Origin: Nesterenkonia sp. LB17
GTDB lineage: Bacteria > Actinomycetota > Actinomycetes > Actinomycetales > Micrococcaceae
Direction of reading: 5' to 3'
DNA: 64,000 nt
NCBI RefSeq assembly: GCF_022565915.1
Contig: NZ_JAJOYX010000001.1
Coordinates: 62,001-126,000 of the forward strand
The notes below the pieces were generated by a model. It had not been told where the DNA came from, made no database searches, and saw only the letters and a list, made by a program, of their open reading frames with translations. This document shows positions 353 through 46,963 of the stretch, piece by piece. The translations under genes were made by a program, and so were the position numbers. Within the stretch, counting starts at the first letter, position 1. Each line of letters starts with the position of its first letter.

Positions 353-363
353 CAGAGGATACT

Positions 364-471
364 CCCATCGATCCTGGCGGTAGCACCCGGCGAAAAGACA
401 CCCTTGCAAAGGTGCCCCTCCCTGGGTTGCTGCGGCGTCGACGAGCCAGATCTCTCGGCCGCTCGGGATGG
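364..471 (-). promoter_or_regulatory. SAM-I (S-box) riboswitch controlling the sulfonate-type ABC gene
   Basis: On the minus strand the order is CCATC, GAGCGGCCGAGAGATCTGGC, GACGCCGC, the core GCAACCC, a P3 hairpin, GGTGCTACCGCCAGGA and closing GATGG. This is the actinobacterial S-box pattern (AGA turn, GCAACC, GTGCTA-CC). P1 pairs CCATC with GATGG. The Shine-Dalgarno GGGAG begins inside the 3' strand of P1, so SAM binding should hide it and block translation of the ATG at 352. Expected effect: expression when SAM/methionine is scarce. Confidence 0.88.
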
Positions 472-481
472 TACGCGGATC

Positions 482-586: not shown

Positions 587-598
587 GAAGGCACTCAA

Positions 599-692
599 CC
601 ATCCAGAGCGACCGAGAGATCTGGCTCGAAGACGTCGCAGCAACCCGGAGGGCTTCACGGCCTCCGCCGGGTGCTAACGCCAGGACCGATGG
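599..692 (+). promoter_or_regulatory. SAM-I (S-box) riboswitch controlling metNIQ
   Basis: CCATCC opens P1; AGAGCGACCGAGAGATCTGG, GACGTCGC and GCAACCCGG follow, then a P3 hairpin, GGGTGCTAACGCCAGGA and the closing GATGG. GCGAC/GTCGC forms P2 and CCGG/CCGG closes P3. GGAG, the ribosome site of metN, starts in the closing strand of P1, 8 nt before the TTG start. This implies translational OFF control by SAM. It mirrors the riboswitch at 364-471. Confidence 0.9.
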
Positions 693-702
693 AGTATGCC
701 CC

Positions 703-26929: not shown

Positions 26930-26979
26930 CGCAGGAGGAGAGCTCGAGCCGGAGCTCGAGCATCCGAGTGAAGATTCTC

Positions 26980-27060
26980 GACTTCCTTCGCAGGTCCTAA
27001 CCTGATCAGGTGCGAGGGTCTGGGCCTTCAGCCCACTCTCAGCGCCCTGCCGGCGGAATC
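26980..27060 (-). promoter_or_regulatory. TPP (THI-box) riboswitch
   Basis: On the minus strand GCTGAGAGTGGGC is followed by GACCCTCGCACCTGATCAGG, TTAGGACCTGCGAAGGAA. CTGAGA, ACCTGATC and GCGAAGGAA are the conserved thiamine-pyrophosphate-binding cores. AGGG/CCCT closes P2 and GGGC/GCCC closes P3; GATTCC with GGAAGTC forms a bulged P1. It should switch off the YkoE transporter when TPP is plentiful. Confidence 0.92.
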
Positions 27061-27169
27061 ATGGCTTTTCAGCCGCGTTCTTCCGTCGAGGGGCGCTCCC
27101 CTGTCGTGTCTCAAATGACGTGCACTAGAGTAACACCAGGACATCGACCCACCCCCTGAGGAGAACATT

Positions 27170-41120: not shown

Positions 41121-41148
41121 GCGGCGGACCTCTCCAAGGTATGAAGAA

Positions 41149-41306
41149 GGGAGCCCCAGATCGGCCAGCGTGAGGGGGACGCTGTATCGGCCGATCCGGG
41201 GCTCCCGAATCACTCGCACCTTGATGAGGTAGTCCTACCCTAGGACGTCTCCTTGGGCGGGCACTTGCGGTTTGCTGGTAAGTCACTGGAAATCGTGGCC
41301 CCAGTC
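41149..41306 (+). ncRNA. unrecognised structured repeat element, copy A
   Basis: An 18-bp outer stem (41149-41166 with 41189-41206, one A/C mismatch) encloses a small hairpin AGCGT-GAGGGGG-ACGCT. Immediately after comes AATCACTCGCACCTTGATGA, then GTCCTA-CCC-TAGGAC, CTTGGGC and a last hairpin ACTGG/CCAGT near 41284-41304. Two more copies follow in the same orientation (41319, 42371). Stems differ in sequence between copies but keep pairing. Orientation and transcription are unproven; it sits after the ABC permease stop. Confidence 0.6.
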
Positions 41307-41318
41307 TTGGCCATGAGA

Positions 41319-41462
41319 AGAGCCCCGAGTCGGCCAGCGTGAGGGGACGCTTTAAATGGCTGACTCGGGGCTCTGAATCACTCGCACCTTGATGAGGTAA
41401 TAATGACTCTAGGCGACATTCTTGGCGTTTCCCCGTGCAGTTCCTGGGAGCTTCCTGAGTCT
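41319..41462 (+). ncRNA. unrecognised structured repeat element, copy B
   Basis: 17-bp outer stem (41319-41335 with 41358-41374, one G-U) around AGCGT-GAGGGG-ACGCT, then AATCACTCGCACCTTGATGA, CTCTAGGC, TTCTTGGC and a weaker final hairpin (CCTGGGAGCTTCCTGAG). Only 12 nt separate it from copy A. It ends before the convergent Rieske gene (stop at 41492). Confidence 0.6.
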
Positions 41463-41491
41463 TAGTCTGCGACGCCTCACAGCTGCTCCGG

Positions 41492-41863
41492 TCAGGCGGC
41501 TGAGTCCTCGCTCGGGCGCGGTGTGCCGGGATGCAGCACCAGTCGATCTCCGTCGATCGTGACCTGATGCGTCTTCACCGGGCGCAGCGCTGGCAGCGTC
41601 TCCGGGACGCCGGTGCGCAGGCAGAAGGCTGAGGCGTGCATGGGGCACTCCAGAGTGTCTTCCTCGACATAGCCATCGGAGAGAGACACTGCCTCGTGGG
41701 AGCAGGTGTCGTCCAGGGCGTAGAAGTCGCCATCCTCGGCGTGGACCACCGCGATGTCGTCGTTCCACCCTGAGTCCTCTGCTGAGACTCGGAAGACCTC
41801 ACCTTCTGGGTATTGGCTTGCGGGGCCGAGGTCGATCGGGGGGAGTGCGTCGGTGGCGGACAT
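41492..41863 (-). CDS. Rieske [2Fe-2S] ferredoxin-like protein
   Basis: 123 residues. AGAGAGGC precedes ATG 41863. The Rieske ligands are present: CSHEAVSLSDG, then 16 residues after that His, CPMHASAFCLRTG (CxH...CxxH), with the usual GVPETLPALRPVKTHQV end. Such small Rieske proteins feed electrons to ring-hydroxylating oxygenases or serve nitrite-reductase-like enzymes. No oxygenase is adjacent, so the partner is unknown. Confidence 0.88.
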   Translation of the reverse strand: MSATDALPPIDLGPASQYPEGEVFRVSAEDSGWNDDIAVVHAEDGDFYALDDTCSHEAVSLSDGYVEEDTLECPMHASAFCLRTGVPETLPALRPVKTHQVTIDGDRLVLHPGTPRPSEDSAA

Positions 41864-41918
41864 CTGTAGTGCCTCTCTAGCGGTGAGTATGTGCAGCCTG
41901 CATTCTTTCAGAAGCCGA

Positions 41919-42314
41919 TCAGCCCGGGAGCTGGCCGCGGAGCTCCTCGAGCTTCCGACGTTCCCGTTTCGTCGGGCGCCCCGAGCCGCGCTCGCGCACC
42001 GGCAGGCCCACGTCGCGGGGCCTGATCCGCTCAGGCGAGTGGTCGCGGTAGGCCTTCTGGGCCACCGGGGGGCCGACTCGCTTCGACAGGGTGTGGACGA
42101 CGTCGAGGATGAGCTCGTGCCCTGGACGGCGGATGTGGATCCGGGTGCCGGGAGTGACGCGCAGCGAGGCCTTCGCCGGGTTGCCATCGATCGTGACGTG
42201 CCCGGCGCGGCAGGCGGTCGTGGCCGCGGACCGGGTCTTGAAGAGCCGGACCGACCAGAGCCATGCGTCGATGCGGACCGGGCCGGTGGGGCCGGTGGGG
42301 GCGGTCTCTGTCAT
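41919..42314 (-). CDS. S4-domain RNA-binding protein, Hsp15-like
   Basis: 131 residues. S4 domain near residues 13-75: RIDAWLWSVRLFKTRSAATT, ACRAGHVTIDGNPAKASLRV. The basic tail with GRPTKRERRKLEEL is typical of Hsp15/HslR relatives, which bind stalled 50S subunits in E. coli. Leaderless start: TAGACT, 6 nt, ATG 42314. Confidence 0.88.
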   Translation of the reverse strand: MTETAPTGPTGPVRIDAWLWSVRLFKTRSAATTACRAGHVTIDGNPAKASLRVTPGTRIHIRRPGHELILDVVHTLSKRVGPPVAQKAYRDHSPERIRPRDVGLPVRERGSGRPTKRERRKLEELRGQLPG

Positions 42315-42320
42315 GGAATC

Positions 42321-42326
42321 AGTCTA
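42321..42326 (-). promoter_or_regulatory. -10 element, leaderless start of the S4 gene
   Basis: TAGACT on the minus strand, 6 nt before ATG 42314. It places the transcription start downstream of element C, so C is not a 5' leader of this gene. Confidence 0.5.
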
Positions 42327-42370
42327 GAGAACCGCTGTCTCGCCTGCGGCGGAGATGTCCCAGCGAATGC

Positions 42371-42527
42371 GCAGACCCCGCGTCCGGAGTGTGAGGGAAC
42401 ACTATTCCGATACGCGGGGTCTGCTGAATCACTCGCACCTTCAAGAGGCACTTCCTACAGTAGAGAGGCTTCTTGGGCAGTCGATGGTCGTGACCTGTGA
42501 GCTGCCTGGAACTCTTGGGGCTCAGGC
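42371..42527 (+). ncRNA. unrecognised structured repeat element, copy C
   Basis: Outer stem (42371-42387 with 42407-42424, 13 bp of GCAGACCCCGCGT plus an inner bulged part) around AGTGT-GAGGGA-ACACT, then AATCACTCGCACCTTCAAGA, CTACAGTAGA, TTCTTGGGC and a closing hairpin GCCTG/CAGGC at 42504-42527. The inner stem changed from AGCGT/ACGCT to AGTGT/ACACT, a paired change. The last hairpin overlaps the 3' end of the lipoprotein gene on the other strand. Confidence 0.6.
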
Positions 42528-43776: not shown

Positions 43777-46700
43777 GTGCCGAAGAAACTCTCATCTGCC
43801 GTTGTCGGCACCCTGGCCGTAGGCCTGACCATGCCACTGACCGCGAATGCCGCCGCCGCGGACACCGCGCCTATGAATGTGGCCGCGCTGCCCACCGCGG
43901 GGGTGGAAGCCCCAGCGACGAATCTCTCCGGACTGAGCAGTGTGGACGTCTCTGCCTCGCAGAACGCCACCCAGTTCCGGTTCCCGCTGGCCCAGCGCTC
44001 CTATACCTACACCTCCCCGTACGGCTCGCGCTGTATGCCGACCCAGGGTGCCTCCACCGCCCACTTGGGACAGGACCTCGGTGCCGCCGACGGCAGCCCG
44101 ATCTACTCCGTGGCCGCAGGCACCGTGGTGCGCGCCTTCAGCGGCAACCGGTACAACACCGGCTTCGTCGTCGTGCAGCACCAGATCAACGGCAGGACCT
44201 TCCACAGCGCCTACCTCCACATGTGGGATGCGCACACCCATGTCCGCGTCGGGCAGACGGTGCAGGCGGGCCAGACCATCTCGCGGGTGGGAAGCTCGGG
44301 TGCATCCACCGGGCCTCACCTGCACCTGGAGATCTGGGAGGGTGCCTGGATGCACGGCACCTCGCACAATCCGACGACCTGGCTCGCACAGCGTGGTGTC
44401 GACCTGCGCGCCTCCGCCTCATTCGTGATGAACATCACCAACCCTTCTGCCTGCAACTACTGGACCGTGAACTCAACTCCGCTGCGCGCCACCGCGAGCA
44501 GCACCGGTTCCGTCATCATGCAGCTCGGAGCGGGCGCCACGCTGACCGCAGCCCCGGGTGACACCAGCAACGGCATGGTGCGGGTGAACGCAAACGGTCG
44601 TATCGGCTGGGTGGCGCACTCTTCACTGACGCCCTCCCGCCCGGCCGGAGGCGGCACTGTGCCTGTGGCCAACGTCCCCCAGGGCACCTCGATCACGCCC
44701 ACCCAGTACCGGACCACCGCGGCGCTGAATGGCCGCAGCGGTCCCGGTACCAACTACGCGGTTCTCCAGGGGCTCACCTCGGGCACCACGGTGACCGTCA
44801 CCGCAACCCACGGCGGCTGGATGAAGTTCAGCCGAAACGGTCAGTCCGTCTGGTCGCACAGTGACTTTCTGACGAGGGTCACCGCGCCTGCTCCGGCAAG
44901 TCCTACCGTCTCGGGCGTCGCGTCGGCCAGCGGCAGCTACACGGTCAAGTCCGGGGGGCCGCTGAACGTGCGCGTCGCGCCGGGCACCTCGAACGCGATC
45001 GCGGGTCACCGCGCCTGCTCCGGCAAGTCCTACCGTCTCGGGCGTCGCGTCGGCCAGCGGCAGCTACACGGTCAAGTCCGGGGGGCCGCTGAACGTGCGC
45101 GTCGCGCCGGGCACCTCGAACGCGATCGCGAAGACTCTCGCGCCGGGCACCACGGTGACGGTCAATGGAAAGAAGGGCTCCTGGCTTCGGTTCAAGGATG
45201 GTTCGCGCAACCTCTGGGTGTTCCAGAATTACGTGGACAAGGTCACCGCGCCTGCTCCGGCAAGTCCTACCGTCTCGGGCGTCGCGTCGGCCAGCGGCAG
45301 CTACACGGTCAAGTCCGGGGGGCCGCTGAACGTGCGCGTCGCGCCGGGCACCTCGAACGCGATCGCGAAGACTCTCGCGCCGGGCACCACGGTGACGGTC
45401 AATGGAAAGAAGGGCTCCTGGCTTCGGTTCAAGGATGGTTCGCGCAACCTCTGGGTGTTCCAGAATTACGTGGACAAGGTCGATGTCCATACCGGCTCCG
45501 GGTCAGGCTCCGAAACCATCTCCGGCGGCCCAGAGTCCTCCAGCTCAACGCCCGTGACTGCGAGCGGCAGCTACATGGTCAAGAGCGGTGTGAGCCTCAA
45601 CGCTCGGACCGGCGCCAGCGCCACCAGCTCCAGCGCGAAGGTTCTCCCCGCGGGGACGAGGATCTCGATCACCGGCAAGAATGGTGAGTGGGTCAGCTAC
45701 CAGGACGGCTCCCGCACCCTCTGGGTCCACTCGGGCTACCTGACCGAGGTCTCAGCGTCGACCCCGAGCAGCCCCAGCACCGGGACCTCATCCGGTACCG
45801 GCTCCACCTCGAACACCGGCTCCACCTCTAGCACGGGCTCGTCCACCTCGACCACTTCGGCGAGCGGGACGTACCACGTCAAGAGCGGGGTCTACCTGAA
45901 CGCACGCAGCGGCCCCGGCACGACCAACCGCGTAGTGGTCACGCTGCTCCCCGGCGAGCAGATCGAGATCACCGGACGCTCCGGCGACTGGGTGCGATTC
46001 ACCTACATCGGCACGACGGTGTGGGCGCACGAGGACTTCCTCAACGCTGGCAGGACAGGCTCCGCCACGAGTTCAGGTTCGCAGGGCTCCACGGGCTCCA
46101 CGACGCAGGCCCCTCGGGCCAACTCCACGAACAGCACCAGCAAAGTCGTCGGCATCTCCTACACCACGGGCAGAGTCAACGTCCGGATGGGCCCCAGCGT
46201 CAACAACAGCGTGATGTACTCCGTGCCGACCGGGACCAAGGTCGAGCTGCTGGAGAAGAAGACCACCGGCTGGCAGGAGATCAAGGTCAACGGGGACACC
46301 GGGTGGATGTCGACTGACTTCCTCTCGAGCACGGCTCCCACCACGACCGGCACGAGCAGCTCGGGCACATCAGGCAGCTCGAACACGGGCTCCACCGGGG
46401 GAACCTCTGCCGGCTTGAGCTCCACCATGCACGCCAAGAGCAAGCATGGACCCTACAGCTCGGTCTGGGACAAGCTGGCCCAGTGTGAGTCCACGGGGGA
46501 CTGGAAGATCGACAGCGGCAACGGCTACTACGGCGGAGTCCAGTTCGGTGTGCAGTCCTGGAAGGCAGTCGGCGGCACAGGCTTCCCGCACCAGGCCAGC
46601 AAGGAGGAGCAGATCAAGCGGGCCTACATGCTCTGGAAGAAGCAGGGATGGAACGCTTGGCCGCACTGCACCTCCCAGCTGGGCCTCAAGGGTGACCCGG

Positions 46701-46963
46701 GCGGCTACGGGGACGACTATTACAAGGTCCACCCCAGCGCGAAGACCGTCTCCTCGGTCTCGGCCGCAGGGACCTGGACTGCGAGCTACAGCGTGCCGCT
46801 GCGCGAAGAGGCCTCCACATCCAGCGACAAGCTCGTGCAGGTCCCGCGCGGCACGGAGCTCAAGCAGCTTCAGCGCGAGGGGTCCTGGCTCAAGGTCCAG
46901 CACAAGGTCGGCGGGGACAGCTACACCGGCTGGGTCAACACCAGCTACATCTCCCAGGCCTGA
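43777..46963 (+). CDS. secreted cell-wall hydrolase: M23 peptidase, eight SH3b repeats, Rpf transglycosylase (frame broken by a 127-bp duplication)
   Basis: GTG 43777 follows GAGGAA. As printed, the frame is lost at 45004; removing one copy of the 127-bp duplication gives a single 1019-residue protein ending at 46963. Signal peptide to about residue 26 (ends TANAAAA). M23 endopeptidase: zinc ligands His96 and Asp100 (HLGQD) and His183 in GPHLHLEIW. Seven SH3b wall-binding repeats follow (such as LNGRSGPGTNYAVLQG, LNARSGPGTTNRVVV, RVNVRMGPSVNNS). Then an Rpf lysozyme-like domain (VWDKLAQCESTGDWKI with its catalytic Glu, GGVQFGVQSW) and a final SH3b. It would cut both cross-bridges and glycan strands of peptidoglycan. 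Confidence 0.85.
44877..45477 (+). repeat. 237-bp tandem repeat: 127-bp partial copy plus two identical full copies
   Basis: Full units 45004-45240 and 45241-45477 look identical base for base and each encode one SH3b unit of 79 residues. The first, 44877-45003, is exactly the first 127 bp of the unit and then stops. Positions from 44876 to 45003 match the sequence 127 nt later. 127 is not divisible by three, hence the frameshift. Confidence 0.93.

Follow-up and report, generated by a model that had tools for sequence, protein, structure and literature searches.

In enterobacteria, the sRNA GcvB carries one invariant unpaired seed that matches many mRNAs of ABC solute-binding proteins at their translation starts. 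RybB and MicA are envelope-stress sRNAs that are driven by sigma-E and switch off the synthesis of envelope proteins. Mcr7 of Mycobacterium tuberculosis is the strongest target of PhoP and was proposed to alter protein export through pairing that covers a ribosome-binding site and the first codons (PMC4038636). It is a single-copy RNA of about 350 nt with a 33-nt loop, occurs only in the M. tuberculosis complex and has tatC as its target (PMC4038636).

The putative sRNA family described here, found in Micrococcaceae, is undescribed and, by its sequence, is a member of none of Mcr7, GcvB and 6C; no description of it was found in the open-access literature searched. PhoP-like boxes and a PhoP ortholog are present, and dependence on PhoP, as in Mcr7, is a prediction here; pairing at translation starts is proposed in both cases. 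Unlike Mcr7, the Micrococcaceae RNAs are short (about 85-90 nt), multicopy and widespread, differ in sequence and location, and have many candidate targets. The family resembles GcvB in that one seed would serve many solute-binding mRNAs, but there is no sequence relation, no Rfam match and a different regulator type, and the candidate targets here also include secreted proteases and wall hydrolases. A stress-induced sRNA turning off envelope proteins is proposed here, as is the case for RybB and MicA, but with a two-component activator in place of sigma-E, in bacteria without an outer membrane and with unrelated sequence. Like 6C RNA and other mycobacterial C-rich-loop sRNAs, the family has a hairpin loop rich in C that would be expected to contact G-rich sequences such as Shine-Dalgarno sites; however, 6C has two such loops where this family has one together with a conserved linear 5' seed, and 6C RNA (RF01066) had no Rfam match in the Nesterenkonia genome or at the copies.

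Copies of the element in the window and the genome

The window, the whole stretch of DNA analysed, comprised 64,000 nt of a 2.8-Mb Nesterenkonia genome. An earlier note, made from the letters of the window, had described three repeated copies of a structured RNA-like element without a known name. All three were present and non-random, as inverted repeats I3 (41149-41206) and I4 (41319-41374) and a third hairpin at about 42371-42425, and D1, a 57-nt direct repeat, was common to them. The pattern GAATCACTCGCACCTT with up to 3 mismatches had three matches in the window, all at the copies, compared with a mean of 0.29 in shuffled sequences, and 0 of 100 shuffles reached three. The stem changes that had been said to preserve pairing were real, with minus-strand fold z-scores of -5.9, -6.5 and -5.0 for the three copies. 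Two more copies were located on contig C3, giving five in the genome, and relatives carried copies as well. Rfam scans at the copies gave no match, GcvB family included, in agreement with an unnamed structured family, and no transposon end was found. The predicted RNA and promoter features, with the genes between them, are as follows.

41143-41231, minus strand: sRNA copy 1, with 5' stem-loop ACCUCAUCAAGGUG, unpaired GCGAGUGAUUC, hairpin at 41149-41206 with loop CCCCCUC, and tail UUCUUC
41237-41288, minus strand: promoter of copy 1, four CAG boxes with 11-bp spacing, -10 TAGGGT at 41237-41242
41312-41399, minus strand: sRNA copy 2, layout as copy 1, hairpin at 41319-41374 with loop CCCCUC, tail UUCUC
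41406-41457, minus strand: promoter of copy 2, four-box array, -10 TAGAGT at 41406-41411
41492-41864, minus strand: Rieske-type ferredoxin gene (MSATDALPP..., named by eye), flanked genus-wide by copy 3 on one side and copies 2 and 1 on the other
41919-42314, minus strand: S4-domain protein gene, syntenic neighbour immediately downstream of copy 3
42365-42450, minus strand: sRNA copy 3, with stem-loop GCCUCUUGAAGGUG, then GCGAGUGAUUC, and hairpin at about 42371-42425 with loop UUCCCUC
42457-42508, minus strand: promoter of copy 3, four-box array, -10 TACTGT at 42457-42462

Each copy had a predicted RNA length of about 85-90 nt. The usual order in Nesterenkonia was sRNA-B, the S4-domain gene, the Rieske gene, one or two copies of sRNA-A and a convergent ABC permease gene. 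An S4 neighbour was also present at loci of Yaniella, Enteractinococcus, Rothia and Micrococcus, which suggests that the neighbourhood of the S4 gene is the ancestral site. This recurrence, and the fact that copy 3 immediately precedes the S4 gene and is co-oriented with it, would fit a cis-acting leader or attenuator of that gene. However, the gene beyond copies 1 and 2 is convergent with them, which makes cis control of a downstream gene unlikely; the two C3 copies had other neighbours, with none in common, and many copies in other genera had no S4 gene nearby. A cis-acting leader is therefore very improbable.

The window contained other features apart from these copies. Rfam identified two divergent SAM riboswitches, at 362-474 (minus strand) and 596-695 (plus strand), and a TPP riboswitch at 26966-27112 (minus strand). 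At 43777-46963 (plus strand), a peptidase-like protein carrying SH3-like repeat units was encoded by two overlapping ORFs in different frames. The change of frame fell within near-identical repeats, and this may be a real frameshift, a variation in repeat length or an assembly error.

Strand, promoter and distribution across Micrococcaceae

Reading of the minus strand gave a regular anatomy across 207 unique copies. The hexamer TANNNT was located 6-8 nt before the invariant 5' part ([A/G]CCTC) in 206 of the 207, and CAG boxes were found at -46, -35, -24 and -13 relative to the hexamer, with exact 11 bp spacing. When one mismatch was allowed, the four-box array with its -10 had five matches in the genome, and these were the five copies only. 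In PhoB-type activation the activator box occupies the -35 position, and the third box of the array sits at this position. A strict scan for a sigma-70 promoter and terminator found none.

The 5' part of the RNA was near-invariant and consisted of an ACCUCAU-AAGGUG stem-loop (stem CACCU/AGGUG, loop CAUSA-like) followed by single-stranded GCGAGUGAU; compensated variants of the stem also exist, such as CCCCATAAGGG and CCTCATGGAGG. After it came a GC-rich hairpin whose sequence was unrelated between genera. The hairpin was strong, with a median fold z of -6.0 over the 207 copies (minus-strand RNA), and its loop contained CCCC in 156 of 207 copies versus 16 of 207 shuffled sequences, while GGGG was found in none. 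The U-tails after the hairpin were modest (mean of 2.8 T in 9, at least 4 T in 30%). The features expected of a base-pairing sRNA, namely a promoter of its own, no coding role and a terminator hairpin, were present: the 207 copies had the promoter array, a -10 and a strong hairpin, with a weak U-tail. A dedicated promoter, a conserved 5' part and a replaceable hairpin together argue for a small-RNA gene and not a mobile palindrome. The RNA gene and its minus strand are well supported by the comparison, and transcription is predicted.

The strand assumed in the earlier note was wrong. What had been read on the plus strand as a conserved CTTGGGC with a terminal hairpin was the promoter and activator-site array of the minus-strand transcript. 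Likewise, the unpaired CACCUU that had been proposed to bind ribosome sites is read by the minus-strand RNA as AAGGUG, the 3' arm of the 5' stem. A structured plus-strand RNA whose conserved CACCUU acts on ribosome sites could draw on the fact that the stems pair on that strand too, some pairs being G-U on the plus strand only. We consider it highly improbable, as the promoter, the start-anchored invariant part and the C-rich loops all fit the minus strand, no conserved promoter was visible upstream on the plus strand, and outside the genus the plus strand would start with an unrelated hairpin.

The same comparison bears on a mobile palindromic repeat of the REP or MITE type. The element is multicopy, palindromic and intergenic, and its tandem copies lie 168 bp apart. 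Nevertheless, a genome had no more than 2-8 copies, all of them with the complete promoter array, and the promoter and 5' part were kept while the hairpins were unrelated between genera. Placement was also syntenic across the genus. A transposon end, MITE or REP was rejected on the grounds of the unrelated hairpins and the synteny, and a mobile repeat in place of a gene is hardly credible.

The core was matched in 30 of 31 Nesterenkonia genomes. In the public genome set, the exact core pattern occurred in at least 117 stretches, all of them from Micrococcaceae among the matches listed. With up to 3 mismatches, the pattern was found in 184 of the 248 genomes from Micrococcaceae and in 31 of the 32 genera sampled, some of the weak single matches being due to chance as judged from a reversed-pattern control. 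The inner stem was lost in a covariance model built on a MAFFT alignment (R2), and the searches used a sequence profile (R1) of the promoter and 5' part. Profile R1 gave E values below 1e-5 in Micrococcaceae only. It also recovered copies in genera g10 and g7; a slightly different 5' stem had hidden most of these from the pattern. No clear copy was found outside Micrococcaceae by the pattern and profile searches.

Several variants were observed. Five Nesterenkonia genomes carried an sRNA-like paralog with a ATGGTGCGAGTGATA-type core and a different hairpin (L272, L273, L282, L306 and L315), and G018, the sole Nesterenkonia genome without a standard copy, was one of the five. In genomes G040, G069, G093 and G115 of genus g11, 5-8 places matched the GGGTGCGAGTGAT core variant, and two of these (L398 and L399) resembled sRNA genes. 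In Micrococcus and Citricoccus copies L051, L114, L140 and L143, the 15-mer AAGGTGCGAGTGATG, or a near match to it, was tandemly duplicated within the RNA. In genus g97 of f3, another family of the order, the four-box array and -10 stood before a different RNA (L248, L249 and L250; four matches in G509) that ended in a long near-perfect hairpin, TACTCGAAGGGG-TCGGCC...GGCCGG-CCCCTTCGAGTA; it may represent a second family of sRNAs controlled by a regulator of the same type. CAG-box arrays with similar spacing were located before protein genes in other families of the order (L252, L253, L255 and L256) and had weak profile matches (E of 0.001-0.006); these may be regulon members or chance matches.

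Candidate regulator and candidate targets

The genome encodes 11 Trans_reg_C proteins. The protein at C4:483347 was a PhoP ortholog, since its best PDB match was PhoP of M. tuberculosis (E of about 8e-84), followed by PrrA (7e-52) and MtrA (3e-50). Its recognition helix, VESYISYLRRKI, was nearly identical to that of M. tuberculosis PhoP, VESYVSYLRRKI. The CAG boxes of the sRNA promoters resembled the footprinted repeats of M. tuberculosis PhoP, which are ACTCCCAGT, ATGCACAGC, ACGTACAGC and TGTTTCAGC (PMC3413638). MtrA binds GTnAC-like repeats with an 11-bp period (PMC6265350, PMC5650626), and these fit less well than the PhoP repeats. CutR binds TAWATAAA (PMC12802291) and was rejected, as this motif is unlike the boxes. 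Judged on protein and motif similarity only, the PhoP ortholog is the most likely regulator.

The same sRNAs might instead be under another regulator of the OmpR family, such as MtrA, RegX3 or an uncharacterised one. Eleven candidate proteins are available, and 11-bp direct repeats are common to the whole family, MtrA sites included. We hold this to be somewhat unlikely, because the CAG core is closer to the PhoP repeats than to GTnAC or to the CutR motif and the PhoP ortholog has nearly the recognition helix of M. tuberculosis PhoP.

Candidate targets were sought by exact complement patterns, and several were accepted by eye. Perfect complements of 11-17 nt to the conserved 5' part recurred at the start codons or in the leaders of unrelated exported proteins. 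The sole perfect 14-mer complement elsewhere in the window's own genome was located within ATGAATCACTCGCACC at the start codon of a membrane protein (target 1). Among six close orthologs of target 1, that of this genome included, the complement was exact in four and had one mismatch in two. A distant ortholog carried TCACTCGCACC in the leader instead, beside an AGGGGG Shine-Dalgarno sequence, and the complement was thus kept at two different positions. The 5' duplexes with target 1 had predicted energies of -30 to -31 kcal/mol. G009 and G025 were rejected as sources of target-1 orthologs, as the leaders belonged to a different gene, encoding a solute-binding protein.

The TCACTCGCACCV complement occurred 63 times in the genus, five of these being variant sRNA genes, compared with 29 times for its reversal. 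Sense sites at starts or in leaders in Nesterenkonia included those of solute-binding lipoproteins (L280/L308, L297/L156, L284, L317 and probably L285) and of a protein that by eye looks like an alanine-type symporter (L330). Outside Nesterenkonia, sites were found at a Bmp lipoprotein in three genomes, just upstream of the Shine-Dalgarno sequence, at two subtilases (L362 and L371), at two NlpC/P60 proteins (L368, by eye, and L382) and at a 5'-nucleotidase-like protein (L393). Pfam assigned the candidate targets to five solute-binding families (ABC_sub_bind, SBP_bac_6, SBP_bac_3, Peripla_BP_4 and Bmp), to Peptidase_S8 twice, to LysM with NLPC_P60 and to Metallophos. At least one candidate, a ribF-like protein (L381/L409), is not exported. 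In G215, ATCACTCGCACC was located directly before an apparent intrinsic terminator (L356), possibly as a site of 3'-end pairing or a sponge site.

Under one automatic rule for export-like starts and leaders, the sense sites that qualified were 8 of 61 for the genus versus 0 of 29 for the reversed-sequence decoy (Fisher p 0.038), and 8 of 44 in the family set; among antisense sites, 6 of 105 qualified. These counts include orthologs and miss target 1 and L280, both noted by eye. Chance matches are to be expected among the sites of 11-12 nt, and as evidence for targets the statistics are suggestive but not overwhelming. The comparison suggests that the complementary sites were not randomly placed, and we predict pairing and repression at them. 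The earlier guess of trans-action near ribosome sites was close as a general idea, since the complementarity searches placed the candidate targets at translation starts, but CACCUU as the agent did not hold.

Alternatively, the 5' part of the minus-strand sRNAs could bind a protein or one main partner RNA, the sites at exported genes being mostly chance or secondary. Few base-pairing seeds are as invariant as the 5' part, and an RNA that binds a protein or acts by titration might well carry AAGGTGCGAGTGATG in tandem, as some Citricoccus and Micrococcus copies do. We rate this as unlikely: in the genus, complements outnumbered the reversed pattern about two to one and clustered on the starts of exported proteins. 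Furthermore, the extensions of the sites tended to track each genus's own sRNA, with GAATCAC in Nesterenkonia and TCATCAC in Micrococcus and Citricoccus.

Proposed mechanism and its meaning

We propose, as the rather probable reading, that the elements are trans-acting minus-strand sRNAs that would be activated by a PhoP-type regulator and would block the translation of exported proteins; regulator, targets and outcome are all predicted from sequence comparison. A phosphorylated response regulator of the OmpR family, most likely the PhoP ortholog, would bind the four tandem 11-bp half-sites and, with the third half-site at the -35 place, recruit RNA polymerase to the TANNNT -10. Activation would produce a burst of sRNA in which two parts would serve recognition: the conserved GGUGCGAGUGAU, which follows the 5' stem-loop, and the C-rich loop of the terminator hairpin. 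GGUGCGAGUGAU would pair at the start codon or within the leader of mRNAs that encode ABC solute-binding lipoproteins, secreted proteases, cell-wall hydrolases and membrane proteins, and the C-rich loop would probably add contacts to G-rich Shine-Dalgarno regions. As this pairing would block ribosome loading, firing of the kinase would cut the synthesis of exported proteins.

Little is known of trans-acting sRNAs and what they target in high-GC Gram-positive bacteria. This sRNA family brings together a conserved seed, a promoter that is both shared and highly specific, a candidate for the regulator and a list of targets open to testing, in soil and skin bacteria that are easily grown (Arthrobacter, Glutamicibacter, Micrococcus, Kocuria and Nesterenkonia). 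We tentatively suggest, as a possibility open to doubt, a family-wide actinobacterial export brake in which PhoP-type signalling acts through a multicopy sRNA whose seed has been matched repeatedly and independently by unrelated solute-binding, protease and wall-hydrolase mRNAs. Given Mcr7, and the different RNA of L248-L250 under the same promoter array, the wiring of PhoP to an sRNA may be a recurring design in actinobacteria. If true, Gram-positive bacteria would have in this family a counterpart to GcvB and to the envelope-stress sRNAs, and the Mcr7 circuit of M. tuberculosis would gain a wider setting.
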